A DNA stretch of 64,000 bases from an uncultured Bacteroidota bacterium (GTDB lineage Bacteria > Bacteroidota > Bacteroidia > Bacteroidales > UBA12077), in the NCBI GenBank assembly GCA_913055635.1, contig CAJXLK010000003.1:77959-141958 (forward strand), written 5' to 3'. The position numbers and the translations under genes were made by a program. The notes beneath the pieces are model-generated. The model had not been told where the DNA came from. It searched no databases and saw only the letters and a list, made by a program, of their open reading frames with translations. Of the stretch, positions 8,994-64,000 are shown in pieces (position 1 is the first letter of the stretch; the number at the start of each line of letters is the position of its first letter).

Positions 8994-10349
8994 ATGAATA
9001 AGCATGTCCTTGCCCTTTTGATTATTCCTGCCGCCATGATTTTAACTTTCAGTTTTATGGTTCCTCCTAAAGAAGGGGGTAAGATGGGGGATTTTGAATA
9101 CAAGGATTTTGATAAACCCGATTATTGTGGTTCATGCCATGACGATTTTTATCAGCAGTGGACCCAGTCGATGATGTCGAAGGCCTACACGCATCACTGG
9201 GATGAGATTGAATATTTCAAGTTGGCAGTGCCCCATTCCAGGAAAGATCCGGAGATGGAGGGAGCTCATGAAGGCTGCAACGGTTGTCATGCCCCGCTGA
9301 GCTATATGGCCGGGGATGTTCCCCCGCCACGGCCGGAGGAGGGTTCACGGGCCAATGAATCGGTTTCCTGTGAAGTATGTCATTTGATTAAGGGCATCCG
9401 GGGCGATACGGCCTATAACCACAATTACATTGTTCAGCCCGGTTTCACCAAATACTCTTCCCGCAAGGGCGAAAAGAGTTCGCCGGAACACCAGATTCAG
9501 ACCACCGAACTGCACAGCAAGGCTAAGTTTTGCGGGATTTGTCACAATGAAAAGAGCCCCTATGGGGCCTGGGTCAAGAGTACCCAGCTGGAGTGGGAGA
9601 ACGGGCCCTATTCGGATGAAGGCGTTCAGTGCCAGGATTGCCATATGACTAAGGCCAAAACCAAAACGGCCAAGATGGGAGCCACATACGATGATGCCAA
9701 GCTTCATCTTTTCCATGGCGCCCACGATCCGGGCAAACTTAACGGTGTGGTCGAGTTGCGCGTTCATCCCAATACCCGCGAGGCCATGATGGGCGATCCG
9801 GTCAAATTCACCGTGGCGTTGTTCAATCAGAAGACCGGCCACAAATTCCCCACGGGCTCTGTAGAAGACCGGATCTTATGGCTTCATGTGGAGGCCAAAG
9901 ACTCGGAAGGCAATGTTTATCACCTGCCGGTGGATAAGAAAGGCTTCGACGGCGAGCAGTATACCATTGCCAGTGATGCCAAGGCTTATCAGGACATGGG
10001 GTTGCCCCTGGGTAAGGAAGATTTTGACGGGGTGCAGCGGGAAGATGTGCCCAACGGCGACCGCATTTTCCGCATGCCCTTCTTTGACCCGAAAGGCCGG
10101 ATGACCATCATGCAGTGGAACACCAAGTCAACCGGGGTCGATTACCGCATCGGCCCCCGCGAAACCAAACTGGAGACTTATACCTTTAATATTCCTTATG
10201 ATATTGCTCCCGGTGAACTGAAAGTGACCGCTGTGTTGAATTATCGCCTGCTGGTCAAACCCGTGGGCGAACTCCTGGATGTGCCCGAAGAAGAATACGC
10301 CGTCCACGAAATCAACCGGCATTCAACCCAGATAACCGTGATACCTTAG
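8994..10349 (+). CDS. Exported five-haem c-type cytochrome
   Basis: A 451-residue protein with five CxxCH haem-attachment motifs: CGSCH (45), CNGCH (95), CEVCH (126), CGICH (180) and CQDCH (213). It starts with a hydrophobic signal or anchor sequence, residues 4-22 (HVLALLIIPAAMILTFSFM). The haem-rich N-terminal half resembles cytochrome c554/multihaem families. The ~220-residue C-terminal half has no haem motifs and looks all-beta. The ATG at 8994 is chosen because it begins directly at the signal peptide; upstream in-frame ATG/TTG codons (8949, 8937) would place a cysteine-containing tail before it. It should act as a periplasmic electron carrier or reductase. The next gene encodes a haem-porin fusion, so it may donate to or accept from the outer membrane (inference). 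Confidence 0.85.
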   Translation: MNKHVLALLIIPAAMILTFSFMVPPKEGGKMGDFEYKDFDKPDYCGSCHDDFYQQWTQSMMSKAYTHHWDEIEYFKLAVPHSRKDPEMEGAHEGCNGCHAPLSYMAGDVPPPRPEEGSRANESVSCEVCHLIKGIRGDTAYNHNYIVQPGFTKYSSRKGEKSSPEHQIQTTELHSKAKFCGICHNEKSPYGAWVKSTQLEWENGPYSDEGVQCQDCHMTKAKTKTAKMGATYDDAKLHLFHGAHDPGKLNGVVELRVHPNTREAMMGDPVKFTVALFNQKTGHKFPTGSVEDRILWLHVEAKDSEGNVYHLPVDKKGFDGEQYTIASDAKAYQDMGLPLGKEDFDGVQREDVPNGDRIFRMPFFDPKGRMTIMQWNTKSTGVDYRIGPRETKLETYTFNIPYDIAPGELKVTAVLNYRLLVKPVGELLDVPEEEYAVHEINRHSTQITVIP

Positions 10350-10640
10350 ACAATGAGCAATAAACAATGAGCAATGAACACTGAGCAATGAGCAATGAAC
10401 AATTAGCAATAAGCAATAAACACTGAGCAATGAACACTGAACAATGGGCAATGAACGCTGAACAATGGGCAATGAGCAATTAGCAATGAACAATGAACTC
10501 TGAACAATGGGCAATGAACAATTAGCAATAAATACTGAGCAATGAACAATGAACAATGAACAAACAGCAATTCAATCATTATTCACTCATTCACTCATTT
10601 AATCATTATTCAATCATTTAATCATTCAATCATTAATTAT
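10350..10640. repeat. Heptanucleotide array (CAATGAA/CAATGAG type) with an opposite-sense right arm
   Basis: From the base after the cytochrome stop, about 210 bases are made of diverged heptamers such as GCAATGA, ACAATGA, ACACTGA and GCAATAA. About 75 further bases are built of TCATTCA/AATCATT words, which read as the opposite sense of the first arm. It ends a few bases before the ATG of the haem-porin gene. A frame running through it (reverse strand 10323-10556) only spells repeated VHCSLF/IVQ-type peptides and is not a gene. Confidence 0.85.
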
Positions 10641-20690: not shown

Positions 20691-21047
20691 ATGAAAAAAT
20701 CTGTTTACCTGTTTGTCTGTATGGCCAATATGCAGCGCAGCCCTACGGCCGAGACAGTTTGCAAAGGGTTGGCCCGGGAAAGCAACCTGCCGGTTGAATG
20801 TGTTTCGGCAGGACTTTCTCCAATGGCTGTACAGCCCGTTAACAAGGATTTGGTCCAAAAAGCCGATTTGATATTTGTGATGGAGCATTTTATGAAAGAG
20901 GTGATCATGCGCGATTATGATGTTGAAGCGGGGCGTATACTTGTTTTTAATATTCCCGATGTTTATGAGCAGGATGATCCGGTGCTGGTCAAACAACTGC
21001 GGGATGCCATGGAACCTTATTTCCGAAAGGGCGCGGAAGGATCATAA
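20691..21047 (+). CDS. Short low-molecular-weight protein tyrosine phosphatase-like protein
   Basis: 118 residues. It opens with the phosphate-binding loop VCMANMQRSPTAE: the CX5R motif is Cys10 to Arg16. An ADLIFVMEHFMKE segment and a C-terminal QDDP follow; the latter is a candidate for the general-acid loop. Classical LMW-PTPs have about 150 residues, so this is a compact form similar to those found in archaea and other environmental bacteria. It should dephosphorylate phosphotyrosine or related phospho-compounds in the cytoplasm. It is followed directly by five copies of the 17-bp palindrome. Confidence 0.75.
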   Translation: MKKSVYLFVCMANMQRSPTAETVCKGLARESNLPVECVSAGLSPMAVQPVNKDLVQKADLIFVMEHFMKEVIMRDYDVEAGRILVFNIPDVYEQDDPVLVKQLRDAMEPYFRKGAEGS

Positions 21048-21063
21048 ATTGACCCCGTAAACG

Positions 21064-21211
21064 ACCCCGCTTAGCGGGGTCGGAATGAACCCCGCTTAGC
21101 GGGGTCTAACCCGAAATGAACCCCGCTTAGCGGGGGTAGGAAGCGAGTGGGGTATGTATGACCCCGCTTAGCGGGGGTAAAACCAGGCGGTATGACCCCG
21201 CTTAGCGGGGT
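21064..21211. repeat. Cluster of five 17-bp palindromes (ACCCCGCTTAGCGGGGT family)
   Basis: Copies at 21064-21080, 21089-21105, 21120-21137, 21161-21178 and 21195-21211. All have the central TTA on the + strand, meaning the same orientation as the upstream gene. Two have one extra G in the right arm. Each forms a 7-bp stem with a 3-base loop, and several extend to GACCCC...GGGGTC. The spacers between copies are unrelated in length and sequence. Confidence 0.95.
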
Positions 21212-25141: not shown

Positions 25142-28100
25142 ATGGGGCAAGCAGAATTGATACAAACACCACAGCCCGGTACCTATCATATTTACCGGGA
25201 GGGAGATTTTTTGGACATTACCCTGAGGGTACCTTCTCACTGGCAGGGGCGGGCTTATCTGCGCACCAGCTTGTTTGCCCCGAAACATAAGTTGCGTGAA
25301 ATCATCGATTATACGGAGCAGGGTTCTCCCAGGCGTTTCCAGGAATGGGGCGATTTTCAGATGCAGCGCGAGGGCTCGGATACCTTTGTCATCTCTGTTC
25401 CCCTGGTGAGTGTGGGATTTTTTGAAGCGAAAGCTTTTTTCCTGCCTGAAGGCGAATATGAGCCCGTGTGGCCCGGGGGCGATAACCTTTTTGTCAAGAT
25501 TGAACCGGCCGATTCGGTCATCAGCAATTCTATCTATTCGGCATTTGTGCGGCTTTTCATAGGCGAGCAGGCCATAAGCCATATCCGCAGGGAGCTTGGC
25601 CAGTTGGGCGATGTTAAGAACAAGGACTATGCCCTTATTCCCGATTCAGGAAAATTCAGAGATTTAGCCCAACAGGTCGACTTCATCGTTGATACCCTGG
25701 GCTTTGACATCATTATGCTGCTGCCGGTTCATCCTACCCCCACCACCTATGCCCGGATGGGCTTGTTTGGCAGCCCCTATGCCGCCCTGGATTTTATGAA
25801 TGTTGATCCGGCCCTGGCTGAGTTTGATAAGCTAACCACCCCCATGGAACAGTTTGGTGAATTGATTGATGCGGTTCATGCCAAGCATGCCCGGATTTTT
25901 ATGGATATTCCGGTCAACCACACCGGCTGGGCCTCACAGCTTCAGGTGCACCATCCGGAATATTTCGTCAAATCTTCCTCGGGAAAATTTGTCTCACCCG
26001 GTGCATGGGGTGTAACATGGAGCGATTTGGCCAAGCTTGATTATGACCAGCCCGGGCTTTGGCGATATATGGCCGAGGTGTTCCTGTTCTGGTGCAGTAA
26101 AGGGGTGGACGGTTTCCGTTGCGACGCCGGTTATATGATCCCTCCCGAAGCCTGGCTCTATATCACTGCCCGGGTGAAAAGGGAATATCCCTCCACCATC
26201 TTCCTGCTCGAAGGCTTGGGCGGTAAGGTTTCCACCACCGAGAAGTTGCTCACCGAATGCAACCTGGATTGGGCCTATTCCGAGATGTTTCAAAATTATG
26301 ACCAGGGCCAGATGGAATGGTATATTGACGAATATGCCCGCACAACTTTCTCCAAAGGGCCCCTGGTGAATTTCTCCGAGACCCATGATAACAATCGCCT
26401 GGCGGCTGTCTCCCATGATTTCTCCCGTCTGCGCAACGCCCTGACGGCCCTTCTCTCCGATACCGGAACTTTTGGCATGTCTTGCGGGGTGGAATGGTTT
26501 GCCCATGAAAAAATCGATGTGCACCGCCTAACCAGTATGAATTGGGGCAATCCGGATAACCAGATCTCCTGGATCCGAAAACTCAACAACATCATTAAAA
26601 CCCATCCGGCTTTTCAAGCCGGCAGTTCGCTTGAAAAAATTCATACCAGCCATACCAACAGCATTGCCTATAAGCGCTATTCACCCGATAAAAAGCATAC
26701 CCTGATCATCCTGGCCAATCTGAATGACCAGCCCAACGAACTGTTTGTCGACATCCGCTACAGCCGCGAAATGTATGAAAATTCGCAGGATTTGCTCTCT
26801 GGAGAGGACCTGGTCTGGAAAAACTGGGGCAATGAGTTTCGCATTCAACTCAAACCCCATCAGGTGGCTGCCGTTTGTAGTGATCCTTCCTATCACCGCC
26901 AGGTGGTCGACCAGCGGGTGGATGCTTTTATTAGAAAGACCAAATCAGAGCGGCTTCTTAAGCTGCAGGTAATGAAACTCTTCCTCTCTGATGGTTACGA
27001 GCTTTCAGAGCAATGGGTGGAAGAGCGCACGGGTGAGTTTGAAGCAGACCCCTATGGCTTTTTCTTTGCCCATTTCACCCGGCGGCCTCCCGTGGTGCAA
27101 TGGTCGCATCCGCGCGATGTCCGACGCATGGTGATCGTGCCATCCGGCACACCGGTGATGGTAATGGCCGGCCATTATTTTCGTTTCCGCATACGCAATA
27201 CCGCCAAGGTCATTGAGCATGGGGAGGGGTTTTACCTGCGCGAGGGTCAATACGTGTCCATCATACCGCCCGGGGTTTTTGATACTCCGAACCACAGGTA
27301 TTATCTGGAGATTGAAGTGTATGACGGGGAAAGCGTCAGGCGTGATACGGGACATTTGATGGTGGCCTCAGCGGGTATGTTTGACCTGCAGGAAACCTTT
27401 CACCGGGATGCTATCCGGAAGGATCCAGCACTTTGCGCCCTCTCGGTCAATGAGGGCGGAGGTGTCAGCATTGCCCGGGGCGCCTTTTCTGCCTTGCAAA
27501 GCAAATATGATGGGTTGATTGCCGCCAATCTGAACCCGGGTCATCCTGAAGACCGTTATATTATGCTGACCCGCCTGCGGGGATGGGCCGTCTGTAAAGG
27601 TTTTTCACGAGCCCTGGGCCCTGAGTATCAGCACCGTTTTGTCCACCGCGATAATACCACCCAATACTACTTTGAAATGCCTGCTGGCGGAGGTTTATTC
27701 ATTCCCCTTTGGTTAACAATGGATTATGATCACAGCGCCGATCATTTGCGCCTGGTCGTTAAGCGTGAGGCATCGGCCAACGCCTCCACCCCCGCCGATG
27801 ATGTGCCGGTGAAGGTGATTCTGCGGCCCGATATGGAAAGCCGAAACCACCATCATCTGACCAAGGCTTTTACCGGTCCTGAACAGGACTGGCCCAACCG
27901 GATACAGGAGCACTCCGGGGGCTTTGTCTTTGACCGGGAGGATAAAAAGTTGCGGGTGGAGCTTGCCCCGGGCCAATTTGTCCGGGAAGATGAATGGCAG
28001 TATATGGTTAACCGGCCGCTGGAGGTGGAAAGAGGCATGGATGGCAATGGCGATTTGTACAGTCCGGGGTATTTCCGTGTGGATCTCACCGGCGGCCAGC

Positions 28101-29434
28101 AAGCCGTGATGGAGGCTGTTGTCGAGACTGAAGCCATGGAACCTGCCCATTCGCCTTCGGAAACGACCCAAACGGCTGATGTATCGACCAGCGATGATGG
28201 CAAAGATATAGCGGGCTTGTTGGCCCGGGGAATTCGCCAGTTCATGGTACGCCGCAACAGCAATCAAACTGTTATTGCCGGTTTCCCCTGGTTTTTGGAT
28301 TGGGGCCGCGACACCCTGATATGCCTGCGGGGCCTCATTGCCGCCGGTTACGATCAGGCGGCTGAAAATATCCTTGCCGGCTTCGCTTCTTTTGAAGACC
28401 GGGGTACCCTGCCCAACGTGCTTCATGGAGCAGATATTTCCAACCGCGATACCTCCGATGCCCCCCTGTGGTTCATAGCCGCTGTTCGTGCCCTTTACCG
28501 GAAAAAAGGCAAACCCCTGCTGGACAAGGATGTGGGCGGAAGAACCCTTCATCAGGTGATCACCTCCATCATCCTTCATTACCAGGAGGGTACCCCCAAC
28601 GGCATTCAGATGGACCCGGAAAGCGGGCTGATATACAGCCCCACCCATTTCACCTGGATGGATACCAATTATCCGGCCGGAACCCCCCGGCAGGGTTATC
28701 CCGTCGAGATACAGGCCTTGTGGCATCATGCCCTGGTTTTTCTTTCCGAATTGGAGCAGCCGCCGCAGCAGTGGGAAGCTCTTGCCCGAAAGGTTCAGCA
28801 ATCCATGGTTCAGTATTTTAAGATGCCCAATCCCGATACCTTGTCGGCCGGGGGGTATTTTTTATCCGACTGTCTGCATGCACAGTCTTTCGTGCCCGCC
28901 CATCAGGCCACCCCGGACGACCATATCCGCCCCAATCAGCTTTTTGCCATTACCCTGGGGGCCATTGATGACCCCGACCTGATGGCTGGCATCGTGGCCG
29001 TTGCCGAAGAGCTGGTCATTCCCGGGGCCATCCGCAGCCTGGCCGACCGCCCCGTTCAATACCCCCTGGCTGTCCATCACCGGGGCCAGCTGCTGAACAA
29101 CCCCCATCATCCCTATCAGGGCCACTATTCAGGCGATGAAGACTGGCAACGCAAACCGGCCTATCACAATGGCACCGCCTGGACATGGCCTCTGCCTTCC
29201 TACTGCGAAGCCCTGTGGATTACCTATGGCCACCAGGCCCGACAAAGAGGCGCCGATATCCTCTCGGCCTCCATCCAAACGTTTAACCACGGCTGTATTG
29301 GCCATTTACCCGAACTCCTCGATGGCAATTATCCCCATCATCAGAAGGGTTGCTTTGCCCAGGCATGGGGGATAACAGAGTTCTTCCGCGTCGCCCGCCT
29401 GCTCGGTCTATTCCCTGAAGACTACCCCGCTTAG
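25142..29434 (+). CDS. Bifunctional glycogen debranching enzyme, GH13 fused to GH133
   Basis: 1430 residues, no signal peptide. The N-terminal half has the GH13 alpha-amylase barrel with all catalytic motifs: DIPVNHTG, GVDGFRCDAG (nucleophile Asp328), FLLEGLGG (acid/base Glu357) and FSETHDNN (Asp416). The C-terminal ~380 residues are an amylo-alpha-1,6-glucosidase domain (GH133) with FPWFLDWGRDTLICLRGL, the WGRD at 1054-1057. This puts 4-alpha-glucanotransferase-like and glucosidase activities in one chain, like the eukaryotic debranching enzyme of similar size. It would trim limit dextrins left by glycogen phosphorylase. The stop codon TAG lies inside a 17-bp palindrome, so the protein ends EDYPA. 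It heads the glycogen block. Confidence 0.88.
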   Translation: MGQAELIQTPQPGTYHIYREGDFLDITLRVPSHWQGRAYLRTSLFAPKHKLREIIDYTEQGSPRRFQEWGDFQMQREGSDTFVISVPLVSVGFFEAKAFFLPEGEYEPVWPGGDNLFVKIEPADSVISNSIYSAFVRLFIGEQAISHIRRELGQLGDVKNKDYALIPDSGKFRDLAQQVDFIVDTLGFDIIMLLPVHPTPTTYARMGLFGSPYAALDFMNVDPALAEFDKLTTPMEQFGELIDAVHAKHARIFMDIPVNHTGWASQLQVHHPEYFVKSSSGKFVSPGAWGVTWSDLAKLDYDQPGLWRYMAEVFLFWCSKGVDGFRCDAGYMIPPEAWLYITARVKREYPSTIFLLEGLGGKVSTTEKLLTECNLDWAYSEMFQNYDQGQMEWYIDEYARTTFSKGPLVNFSETHDNNRLAAVSHDFSRLRNALTALLSDTGTFGMSCGVEWFAHEKIDVHRLTSMNWGNPDNQISWIRKLNNIIKTHPAFQAGSSLEKIHTSHTNSIAYKRYSPDKKHTLIILANLNDQPNELFVDIRYSREMYENSQDLLSGEDLVWKNWGNEFRIQLKPHQVAAVCSDPSYHRQVVDQRVDAFIRKTKSERLLKLQVMKLFLSDGYELSEQWVEERTGEFEADPYGFFFAHFTRRPPVVQWSHPRDVRRMVIVPSGTPVMVMAGHYFRFRIRNTAKVIEHGEGFYLREGQYVSIIPPGVFDTPNHRYYLEIEVYDGESVRRDTGHLMVASAGMFDLQETFHRDAIRKDPALCALSVNEGGGVSIARGAFSALQSKYDGLIAANLNPGHPEDRYIMLTRLRGWAVCKGFSRALGPEYQHRFVHRDNTTQYYFEMPAGGGLFIPLWLTMDYDHSADHLRLVVKREASANASTPADDVPVKVILRPDMESRNHHHLTKAFTGPEQDWPNRIQEHSGGFVFDREDKKLRVELAPGQFVREDEWQYMVNRPLEVERGMDGNGDLYSPGYFRVDLTGGQQAVMEAVVETEAMEPAHSPSETTQTADVSTSDDGKDIAGLLARGIRQFMVRRNSNQTVIAGFPWFLDWGRDTLICLRGLIAAGYDQAAENILAGFASFEDRGTLPNVLHGADISNRDTSDAPLWFIAAVRALYRKKGKPLLDKDVGGRTLHQVITSIILHYQEGTPNGIQMDPESGLIYSPTHFTWMDTNYPAGTPRQGYPVEIQALWHHALVFLSELEQPPQQWEALARKVQQSMVQYFKMPNPDTLSAGGYFLSDCLHAQSFVPAHQATPDDHIRPNQLFAITLGAIDDPDLMAGIVAVAEELVIPGAIRSLADRPVQYPLAVHHRGQLLNNPHHPYQGHYSGDEDWQRKPAYHNGTAWTWPLPSYCEALWITYGHQARQRGADILSASIQTFNHGCIGHLPELLDGNYPHHQKGCFAQAWGITEFFRVARLLGLFPEDYPA

Positions 29435-29517
29435 CGGGGTAAGCTACGAAGACCACCCCGCTTAAAAATAACCCCCGCTTAGCGGGGTAAAAAAAATATC
29501 ACCCCGCTTAGCGGGGT
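29424..29517. repeat. Palindrome cluster overlapping the debranching-enzyme stop codon
   Basis: Full copies at 29424-29440 (contains the stop codon 29432-29434), 29471-29488 and 29501-29517, plus a half copy ACCCCGCTTA at 29455-29464. All have TTA centres on the + strand. The remaining ~300 bases to the next gene are AT-rich and hold no gene. Confidence 0.95.
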
Positions 29518-30571: not shown

Positions 30572-30757
30572 GCTTTCGTGCCTCCGCTAAGCGGGGTAGT
30601 GGTTCAATGAGTTGACGACCTCGGAGATCGCTTTCGTGCCTCCGCTAAGCGGGGTAGTGGTTCAATGAGTTGACGACCTCGGAGATCGCTTTCGTGAACC
30701 CCGCTAAGCGGGGTAGTGGTTAAGCGGGGTAGTATTTTAGGTGCCCCGCTAGGGGGG
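30572..30757. repeat. 58-bp tandem repeat containing the palindrome in reverse orientation
   Basis: A 58-bp unit beginning GCTTTCGTG starts at 30572, 30630 and 30688. The first two units are identical, and the third is cut short. Each unit carries one palindrome: 30581-30597 and 30639-30655 (imperfect left arm CCTCCGC) and 30698-30714 (perfect), all with TAA centres on the + strand. A half copy near 30720 and a degraded copy at 30742-30757 follow. Confidence 0.92.
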
Positions 30758-38935: not shown

Positions 38936-39256
38936 ACCCCGCTTAGCGGGGTCATCTTTCCGGAACCCAACCCCGCTTGAGTCCAACCCTTAGCGGGGAG
39001 CTTAAAATTTAGACCCCGCTTAATTTAGACCCCGCTTAGCGGGGTCGGGTCCCGGTAAAGGCAGGTTAATAAAACTCTGTTTAATAACCCTCGCTAATTG
39101 GAGTTGGATGGCAGGGGTATAAACTTATCCTGCTTAGGGGCCTGTCTTACCAGTCCGCTAAGCGGGGTGTTCGGAAAAGCAACCCCGCTTAAAAAGCTAC
39201 CCCGCTAAGCGGGGTCATGAGAAGCGGGATTGTTATCGCACCCCGCTAAGCGGGGT
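38936..39256. repeat. Palindrome cluster with an orientation switch between symporter and glucokinase genes
   Basis: Full copies with TTA centre on +: 38936-38952 and 39029-39045. Full copies with TAA centre on +: 39152-39168 (imperfect), 39199-39215 and 39240-39256 (contains the ppgK stop). Half copies: ACCCCGCTTA at 39013-39022 and ACCCCGCTT at 39182-39190. One copy from 38969 is split by about 12 extra bases between its arms. The orientation flips near 39100. Confidence 0.93.
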
Positions 39257-40043
39257 CATGTTCGGGGTCTTCGGCCGGGGCTGTTTCCTGCTGAATTTCA
39301 ATCGCTTCTACTGCCGCGCCAATGATCCCTGCGTGGTTCTGTAAGTAGGCTGGCAGAACCCGGGTTTTGACTTTGTGGAGATAAGATTCGTATTTTTCAA
39401 ATTTTTTGCTGGCTCCCCCGCCTATGATGATCAATTCAGGATAAAAAAGTTTTTCCAGGTGATGGAGGTATTTGCCGAAACGCTTGGCCCATTTCTTCCA
39501 GCTCAGGTCTTCTTTTTTCCGGGTGGCATCGGAGGCCCATTTTTCGGCAATTTTATTCTTATAGTGAAGGTGGCCCAGCTCGGTGTTGGGCAGCAACACC
39601 CCGTTGGTAAAAAGGGCTGTGCCCAGGCCGCTGCCTACGGTAACCATCAGGCCCACGCCTCTGAGGTCCTTGCCGTGGCCAAATCGCATTTCGGCCAGCC
39701 CAGCCGCATCAGCATCGTTGATGACCGTCGTCTCGCACCCGGTGGCTTCCTTCAGCAAGGCCGGCACATCGGTTCCGATCCAGCTTTTGTCTATGTTGGC
39801 CGCTTTTTGAACAATTCCCGCCTGTACCGGGGCCGGCATGGCCAAGCCGATCCTGCCTTGATAGTTAAAATGCTCTGCAATGTGCTTAATGGTTTGAGCA
39901 ACTGCAAACGTGGTGGAAGGCTCAGGCGTTTGAATGCGGTGACGCTCAGTGGTCAGCTCTCCTGTGCGGGTGTCTATTAAAGCACCCTTGATGCCTGAAC
40001 CGCCAAAATCAATGCCCAAGCGAACATATTCCTGGTTTGACAT
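39246..40043 (-). CDS. ppgK: Polyphosphate glucokinase (ROK family)
   Basis: 265 residues. The N-terminal phosphate motif is [42 protein letters not shown] and the [31 protein letters not shown] segments are close to actinobacterial polyphosphate glucokinases. PKTELGH-type zinc motifs of ordinary ROK kinases are replaced by the PNTELGHL form. It phosphorylates glucose using inorganic polyphosphate (and possibly ATP), yielding glucose-6-phosphate. Next to the glycogen genes, it would recapture the free glucose set free by the debranching glucosidase. Its stop TAG is inside a 17-bp palindrome; the protein ends EHDPA. Confidence 0.88.
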
Positions 40044-58250: not shown

Positions 58251-58391
58251 CCAACATTTAGCGTTTAACCTGCATTGATAGGGGGGAGCTCAGTTCAGGC
58301 TTCTCTCTTTGAGGGAATGATGATGGAGGGTGATGTTTTTTTATTGATGCGGCATTGTCCCTATTGAAAGGCTTCTTTGTTTTATTTTCTG

Positions 58392-58580
58392 CCCTCCTTT
58401 GTATTTTGACCCTTCTTTATATTTCGGCTCCTCTTTTTTTCGGCCCTCCTTTGTATTTTGACCCTTCTTTATATTTCGGCTCCTCTTTTTTTCGGCCCTC
58501 CTTTGTATTTTGGCTCCTCTTTATTTCGGCCCCCCTTTGTATTTCGGCCCTTCTTTATTTCGGCCTTCTTTGTATACCCC
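58392..58580. repeat. 52-bp pyrimidine-rich tandem repeat
   Basis: Two identical 52-base units, 58392-58443 and 58444-58495, begin CCCTCCTTTGTATTTTGACC. A third, shortened and diverged unit starts at 58496 and degrades into ~27-base sub-repeats (TTCGGCCC..CTTTGTATTTCGG) up to about 58580. It sits between the membrane kinase and menG. Frames through it spell only repeated FISAPLYFG-type peptide. Confidence 0.92.
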
Positions 58581-62322: not shown

Positions 62323-62510
62323 ACTCCCTTCTCCATCCTTCCTTCTACTCCCTCCTTCCTTCTTCTCTCCCTACTTCTTTTCTCCTTACTTCTCCTCTCC
62401 TTACTCCCTTCTTCTCTCCTTACTCCCTACTTCTTCTTCCTACTTCTTCTCTCCTTACTCCCTACTTCTTTACTCCCTACTTCTTTACTCCCTACTTCTT
62501 CTTCGCTTCT
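62323..62510. repeat. Pyrimidine-tract array overlapping a methyltransferase stop codon
   Basis: About 190 bases of almost pure C/T on the + strand, built from TACTCCCTACTTCTT-type units. Three identical 15-base units lie at 62456-62470, 62471-62485 and 62486-62500. The stop codon of the reverse-strand gene (62492-62494) is inside the last perfect unit. Confidence 0.9.
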
Positions 62511-63765: not shown

Positions 63766-63782
63766 ACCCCGCTAAGCGGGGT
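63766..63782. repeat. Single 17-bp palindrome supplying a histidine kinase stop codon
   Basis: ACCCCGCTAAGCGGGGT on the + strand (TTA centre in the sense of the reverse-strand gene). The stop TAG of the kinase is 63774-63772. On the + strand it is followed by a run of seven T (63782-63788), so in that direction it has terminator form. Confidence 0.95.
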
Positions 63783-64000
63783 TTTTTTCAGCAAACCAGA
63801 GCGAAAAAACCGAGCCTTTATTTGGTTCGGAATGTACCGTAACCTGGCCGTCGTGTTGGTGCATGATCTGGCGGCATAGGCTGAGACCAATGCCGGAGCC
63901 ACTTTTTTTGGTGGAATAAAAGGGGATGAAGACCTTTTCCAGGTCATTTGGCTCCAAACCCTTGCCATTGTCAGCGATATCAATCCGCAGGTGGCTGTTT
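63772..64000 (-). CDS. Histidine kinase C-terminal fragment (5' end beyond window)
   Basis: The reverse-strand frame is open to the window edge. The 75 visible residues are the end of a HATPase domain: IADNGKGLEPNDLEKVFIPF (G1 and F boxes), then KKSGSGIGLSLCRQIMHQHDG (G2 box) and SEPNKGSVFSLWF. The kinase core upstream, including the phospho-accepting histidine, is out of view. The layout (KKSGSGIGL) resembles NtrY/AtoS-like kinases. The protein ends AEKNPA, where the last two residues and the stop come from the 17-bp palindrome. Confidence 0.85.
   Translation of the reverse strand, partial: NSHLRIDIADNGKGLEPNDLEKVFIPFYSTKKSGSGIGLSLCRQIMHQHDGQVTVHSEPNKGSVFSLWFAEKNPA

Follow-up and report, generated by a model that had tools for sequence, protein, structure and literature searches.

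A dispersed 17-bp palindrome supplies the stop codons of unrelated genes in an uncultured Bacteroidales species

Results and discussion

In an 853-kb sample of the genome of an uncultured Bacteroidales species, eight genes unrelated to one another have their stop codons inside copies of a single 17-bp palindrome, ACCCCGCTTAGCGGGGT. All eight stops are located at offset 8 of the element, in one sense, and are spelled Pro-Ala-TAG. The element is probably a REP-like, non-coding dispersed palindrome that has expanded in one species, and the center of which replaces a native stop codon located just downstream, in the one frame that is permitted. A copy positioned just upstream of a native stop, with the frame CCC-GCT-TAG, would cause translation to end in the loop of the hairpin, and the protein would gain the residues Pro-Ala.

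Copies of the palindrome in the window

The window, which is the whole analyzed stretch of 64,000 nucleotides, contains ACCCCGCTTAGCGGGGT at 17 places when up to three mismatches are allowed, whereas dinucleotide shuffles give 0.11 matches on average. Only the central base of the element departs from perfect palindromy, and the sense of the element is therefore given solely by the T or A at that position. The corresponding RNA is predicted to fold into a 7-bp hairpin with a GC-rich stem and a three-base loop, and the predicted folding energy of -12 kcal/mol is the same for the T- and A-centered senses.

Three of the 17 copies provide Pro-Ala-TAG, and the other 14 supply no stop codon. The palindrome at 29424-29440 on the plus strand contains the TAG (29432-29434) that terminates a GH13/GH133-type glycogen debranching enzyme with GDE_C, GDE_N, and alpha-amylase domains (25142-29434, plus strand), the sequence of which ends in FPEDYPA. 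Two more plus-strand palindromes are located 3' of this gene at 29472-29517 (29472-29488 and 29501-29517), and they are preceded, near 29455, by the half copy ACCCCGCTTA followed by AAAAT. The palindrome at 39240-39256 on the minus strand gives the stop (39248-39246) of a polyphosphate--glucose phosphotransferase of the ROK family (39246-40043, minus strand; NF045942, 311 bits against a cut-off of 250), which is a polyphosphate glucokinase ending in EHDPA. The remaining palindromes of the cluster at the end of this gene are spread over 38936-39215, starting at 38936 (+), 39029 (+), 39152 (-), and 39199 (-), with half copies near 38971, 39014, and 39183. A single minus-strand copy at 63766-63782 gives the stop (63774-63772) of a 457-residue histidine kinase ending in FAEKNPA. 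The window contains the 3' part of the kinase gene (63772-64000, minus strand), which was called on the contig and extends past the right end of the window; the complete gene was taken from the genome.

Among the copies that supply no stop codon are the five palindromes of a plus-strand cluster at 21064-21211 (21064, 21089, 21120, 21161, and 21195), the first of which lies 16 nt past the stop of the open reading frame 20691-21047 and has the same sense. Three minus-strand palindromes (30581-30714) are located in an intergenic region inside a 58-bp tandem repeat (30572-30721). A tandem repeat of 52 bp occupies another intergenic gap, at 58380-58575.

Expansion in one species and organization of clusters

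The expansion of the palindrome is a species-level feature of one uncultured Bacteroidales species or its immediate lineage. The 15-bp core CCCCGCTNAGCGGGG has 540 exact occurrences in the 4.08-Mb metagenome-assembled genome. Of 38 relatives searched, including four congeners, a single congener contains it, with two occurrences, and the remaining 37 relatives have none. A 13-bp core occurs 548 times in the host genome and at most 11 times in any of 392 other Bacteroidales genomes. The counts in relatives therefore assign the expansion to the host species or its immediate lineage. A viral carrier was considered and rejected: the only matches in 2.9 million viral contigs were 18 scattered single ones, none of them in a cluster, a pattern suggestive of chance.

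The copies form clusters of up to eight, and 44 clusters are distributed over 399 gaps of at least 50 bp, which corresponds to approximately one gap in nine. Neighboring copies mostly have the same orientation (85 of 103 adjacent pairs, with 15 in the +- and 3 in the -+ arrangement), and the spacing between them peaks at about 24-32 bp. Within the clusters, half copies are repeated along with spacer sequence, such as TATCTACCCCCGCTTATCTACCCCCGCTTA, and this repetition points to local slippage as the probable source of the clusters. The palindrome has thus often been amplified locally, along with flanking spacer; that it is mobile or template-copied is the simplest account of its spread.

The GC-rich 7-bp stem with its triloop, placed after genes, resembles an intrinsic transcription terminator that overlaps stop codons by coincidence, and a few copies are accompanied by T-runs, for example that at 39215-39199 (-). 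However, only 13 of the 146 sampled copies have five or more consecutive T within the 12 nt that follow the stem in the sense orientation (8 on the other side), and the terminator reading was rejected for most copies on this ground. Furthermore, a terminator does not require a fixed 17-bp sequence limited to one species, nor clusters of up to eight copies. It is therefore very improbable that the elements are terminators.

Sister species have other palindromes built around the core GCTTAGC, almost all of which are intergenic. The congener G003 has the 25-bp double palindrome AGCGCTTAGCGC(A/T)GCGCTAAGCGCT, and the congener G002 has ACCCCTTAGCGG / CCGCTTAGCGG variants. Intergenic examples from the two congeners are at 100-165 and 570-590 of locus L171 and at 15776-15833 of contig C9 of G002. 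The sample of a further congener, G001, contains essentially no palindromes with the GCTTAGC core. The region downstream of hcp carries three different palindrome versions in three species, and the genus offers three species with different versions for comparison.

Stop codons supplied by the palindrome

The 853-kb sample used for the gene tallies represents 21% of the genome, and its genes were called with a home-made hexamer coding model. The palindrome is nearly excluded from coding sequence: coding calls cover 82-89% of the sample, yet 128 of the 146 sampled copies are intergenic. The stop codons of nine called genes touch a copy, and in eight of these the stop is inside it, so that at least five genes outside the window end in the palindrome like the three within it. 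The eight genes encode a DnaE-type polymerase, a PepD-like peptidase, the debranching enzyme, the polyphosphate glucokinase, the histidine kinase, an NAD-synthase-like protein, an Hcp-like protein, and a TetR-type regulator; the names were assigned by resemblance, except for the debranching enzyme and the glucokinase, which are profile-based.

Proteins ending in Pro-Ala-stop are encoded by 9 of the 576 genes of the sample, and all of them derive from the element. Eight are formed by full copies and one by the half copy ACCCCGCTTAA, which ends the gene at 148215-149195 of contig C2 as Pro-Ala-TAA. Pro-Arg-TAA, which could be formed by a reverse-sense copy, was found in none of the 576 genes. 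Eight of the nine open reading frames that enter a copy belong to one of the six possible classes of sense and frame (P = 4.6e-6 for that class), which exceeds the overlap with stop codons expected by chance for an element near gene ends. Only one of the nine is read through, whereas two thirds would be expected (P = 0.001). The read-through case involves a C-terminal, reverse-sense copy, and the other intragenic calls look like misplaced starts or a tiny open reading frame.

The preliminary description of this DNA had reported that the palindromes at 29424, 39240, and 63766 give Pro-Ala-TAG to three unrelated genes, with the element in the same sense each time. The coordinates and stops are correct, and the common sense extends to all eight genes of the sample. 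The observation was understated, in that 14 of the 17 copies in the window provide no stop and at least five genes beyond the window have the same type of ending. Its suggestion that a mobile or templated palindrome installs termination codons has stood in part: the element is dispersed, evidently mobile, and located at gene ends in one sense and frame. By contrast, the installation of stops does not appear to be its purpose, because only about 8 of the 146 sampled copies supply one, most copies are located in intergenic clusters, and Pro-Ala-TAG simply results from reading the palindrome in one of its three sense frames (CCC-GCT-TAG).

The single offset and single sense, without exceptions among genes with a stop inside a copy, together with the TGA- or TAA-like triplets that often precede the copies, could also be produced by a mobilizing enzyme that recognizes the stop codon or the termination context and inserts the element in one sense. 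Nevertheless, downstream copies are found at varying distances from stops (5-16 nt and beyond), many clusters are located in gaps without a nearby stop, and we know of no enzyme that inserts at stop codons in this way. Such targeted insertion is the least probable of the explanations considered here. According to the favored explanation, that of a REP-like non-coding repeat, new copies would enter gene ends, and those that are read through or garble the C-terminus would be lost. Copies whose stop falls only a few codons from the native position may be nearly neutral and therefore retained.

Comparison with orthologs and removal of the element

Congener orthologs of the debranching enzyme, the Hcp-like protein, the PepD-like peptidase, the glucokinase, and the NAD-synthase-like protein have other end residues and no palindrome at that position. 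The preliminary description would have been refuted by orthologs that have the same end residues but no palindrome; the congener orthologs do not end in Pro-Ala. Their C-termini are located about five residues or less from the position in the host, except for the glucokinase, the tail of which varies in length. The debranching enzyme ends in FPQLR or FPGMNR in congeners and in FPEDYPA in the host; the corresponding ends are AMLQ, AMLA, or AMA and AMLNPA for the hcp product, and IPAEQ or IPADK and IPGEEAPA for the PepD-like peptidase. A dispersed repeat therefore rewrites the ends of ordinary housekeeping proteins, as seen against orthologs that lack the element.

In silico deletion of the 15-bp core from hcp results in AMLK-TAG, which matches the AMLQ, AMLA, and AMA of the congeners, and deletion of the core together with a duplicated TA from the debranching enzyme gene results in ED-TAA. 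No one deletion length from 14 to 18 bp consistently places a stop directly at the junction in the six remaining genes. Restoration of the native stop by such a deletion was therefore rejected as a general rule, being neat only for hcp and the debranching enzyme. With the element taken out, most of these six genes do not run straight into a native stop, a point against the view that copies were cleanly inserted next to intact native stops.

Position and sense of copies relative to stop codons

Copies of the palindrome crowd directly downstream of stop codons. The distance to the stop is 16 nt or less for 21 of the 41 stop-facing cluster ends, compared to 8.9 +/- 2.0 expected when the position of each cluster is shifted inside the gap that contains it. 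A start codon lies within the same distance of only two cluster ends. Copies located within 16 nt of a stop have the same sense in 20 of 20 genes, including all 11 copies that are wholly downstream and have no coding role, whereas the ratio of same to opposite sense is 6:7 at 17-100 nt (Fisher P = 0.0004). Several of the opposite cases at 17-100 nt have a degraded same-sense copy closer to the stop. Replication strand was rejected as the cause of the bias: genes of both strands within the same contigs carry same-sense copies, and the bias therefore follows transcription or translation.

Neutral retention does not account for why no reverse-sense copy lies 16 nt or less from a stop. The strict sense bias would instead agree with a selected combined stop-and-hairpin signal, which the preliminary description had offered as its second possibility. 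The hairpin, with the loop UUA in the mRNA sense, would act on the terminating ribosome or protect the 3' end of the mRNA, and supplying the stop itself would be the tightest form of that arrangement. E. coli REPs located 15 nt or less from a stop have been reported to stall the terminating ribosome and reduce expression (Liang 2015, cited in PMC12306157), and the 16-nt reach of the sense bias described here is close to this limit. The related palindromes downstream of hcp in two congeners also speak for a signal. However, the two senses have equal predicted energy, and hairpin strength therefore cannot choose between them and was rejected as the cause of the bias. Moreover, half of the stop-facing clusters start more than 16 nt from the stop, and cluster density is about equal in divergent and tandem gaps. 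A signal that would give stop-proximal copies their uniform sense has a small but appreciable chance of being the correct explanation.

If the palindrome is a REP-like non-coding repeat, the bias within 16 nt may arise at the RNA level, through the 3' end of the mRNA or the ribosome that is terminating, as has been proposed for E. coli REPs, or alternatively strand-specific insertion tied to transcription. A bolder and rather doubtful extension is that the central base is read out: only the T-centered form would be tolerated or useful within 16 nt past a stop or in the stop itself, and a lineage-specific stop-hairpin signal would have been spread by a mobile palindrome, with each species having its own version around the shared GCTTAGC. 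The two forms, which differ by one central base, provide a clean natural case for studying why REP-like repeats crowd in one direction at stops.

Comparison with known palindromic repeats

Similar to the REPs of E. coli, Pseudomonas, and other bacteria, the element is a short, high-copy palindrome that is intergenic, clustered, and often species-specific. The features of REPs in the broad sense, namely more than 100 copies, palindromic sequence, and intergenic location, are found here as 540 cores and 128 of 146 intergenic copies. REPs are located less than 20 bp from the 3' ends of genes (PMC3733652), and a comparable proximity is seen here, where 21 of 41 stop-facing cluster ends are no more than 16 nt from a stop and 8.9 are expected. 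REPs include GTAG- and CGTC-tagged super-families, and the termini of REPs with the GTAG tag "often provide" adjacent open reading frames with a TAG stop (PMC3733652). The supply of stops by a dispersed palindrome is therefore an already known phenomenon, as is the crowding directly past stop codons. Nine 50-kb stretches of E. coli MG1655 contain an example: the open reading frame of mutT is terminated by the GTAG of a REP. In the same stretches, REPs located 16 nt or less from the end of an open reading frame lean towards GTAG-first (7:3), unlike those at greater distance (7:20; P = 0.023), a comparison subject to the caveats of linked copies and simple calls of open reading frames.

Unlike the tagged REPs, the flanks of the 146 copies contain no GTAG or CGTC tag, and only a C directly after the element is frequent (53%). 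The element is 17 bp with a three-base loop, and the loop of the hairpin, rather than a tag at one end, supplies the stop. In BIMEs the copies alternate in orientation at regular spacing, whereas neighboring copies of this element mostly point the same way. What is new here is the element family, its lack of a tag, the position of the stop in the hairpin loop, and how strictly the sense bias is kept; no description of the family was found in the literature searched.

Palindromic elements of Rickettsia (RPE) are repeats located within reading frames that add residues to proteins. The palindrome described here also adds residues to proteins; however, its copies are nearly absent from genes, and they end open reading frames instead of being read through.

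RAYT-associated REPs have been described (PMC2817692); in such systems the rayt gene lies between two inverted copies. No complete RAYT was found in this genome. A lead to the mover of the palindrome is provided by an incomplete REP-type tyrosine transposase (NF047646, E = 7e-6) on contig C51 of the host genome G000 (minus strand, 1-230 of locus L067). The fragment comprises the N-terminal 75 residues, is cut off by the contig end, and starts approximately 250 bp from a palindrome cluster (480-580 of L067). The adjacency is weak evidence, because about one gap in nine holds a cluster. The fragment is the only trace of a Y1 transposase in the genome, where no complete transposase was found, and no Y1 transposase was detectable in G002 and G003, the congeners with related palindromes. 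TnpA-REP subclass 2.6 of Bacteroidetes is flanked by "atypical secondary structures" (PMC6006769). A possible parallel is the C51 fragment, a 75-residue piece of a REP-type transposase near a palindrome cluster.

Other repeats of the genome

A second dispersed intergenic repeat, AATGCCTGCCCCG..., is present at positions 9054, 19842, 28995, and 38099 of contig C1 of G000 and elsewhere. It often has the arms CCCCGCT...AGCGGGG around a longer loop and is possibly a relative of the palindrome. The genome has a further repeat type in the form of arrays of AGTAGGGAGTAA/TTACTCCCTACT units, found in the window at 62345-62502; all are outside genes, and the 12-mer of the arrays has 42 copies in the 853-kb sample. 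A degenerate 7-bp array (ACAATGA) at 10350-10571 of the window starts at the base directly following the stop of the open reading frame 8994-10349 and fills the gap.
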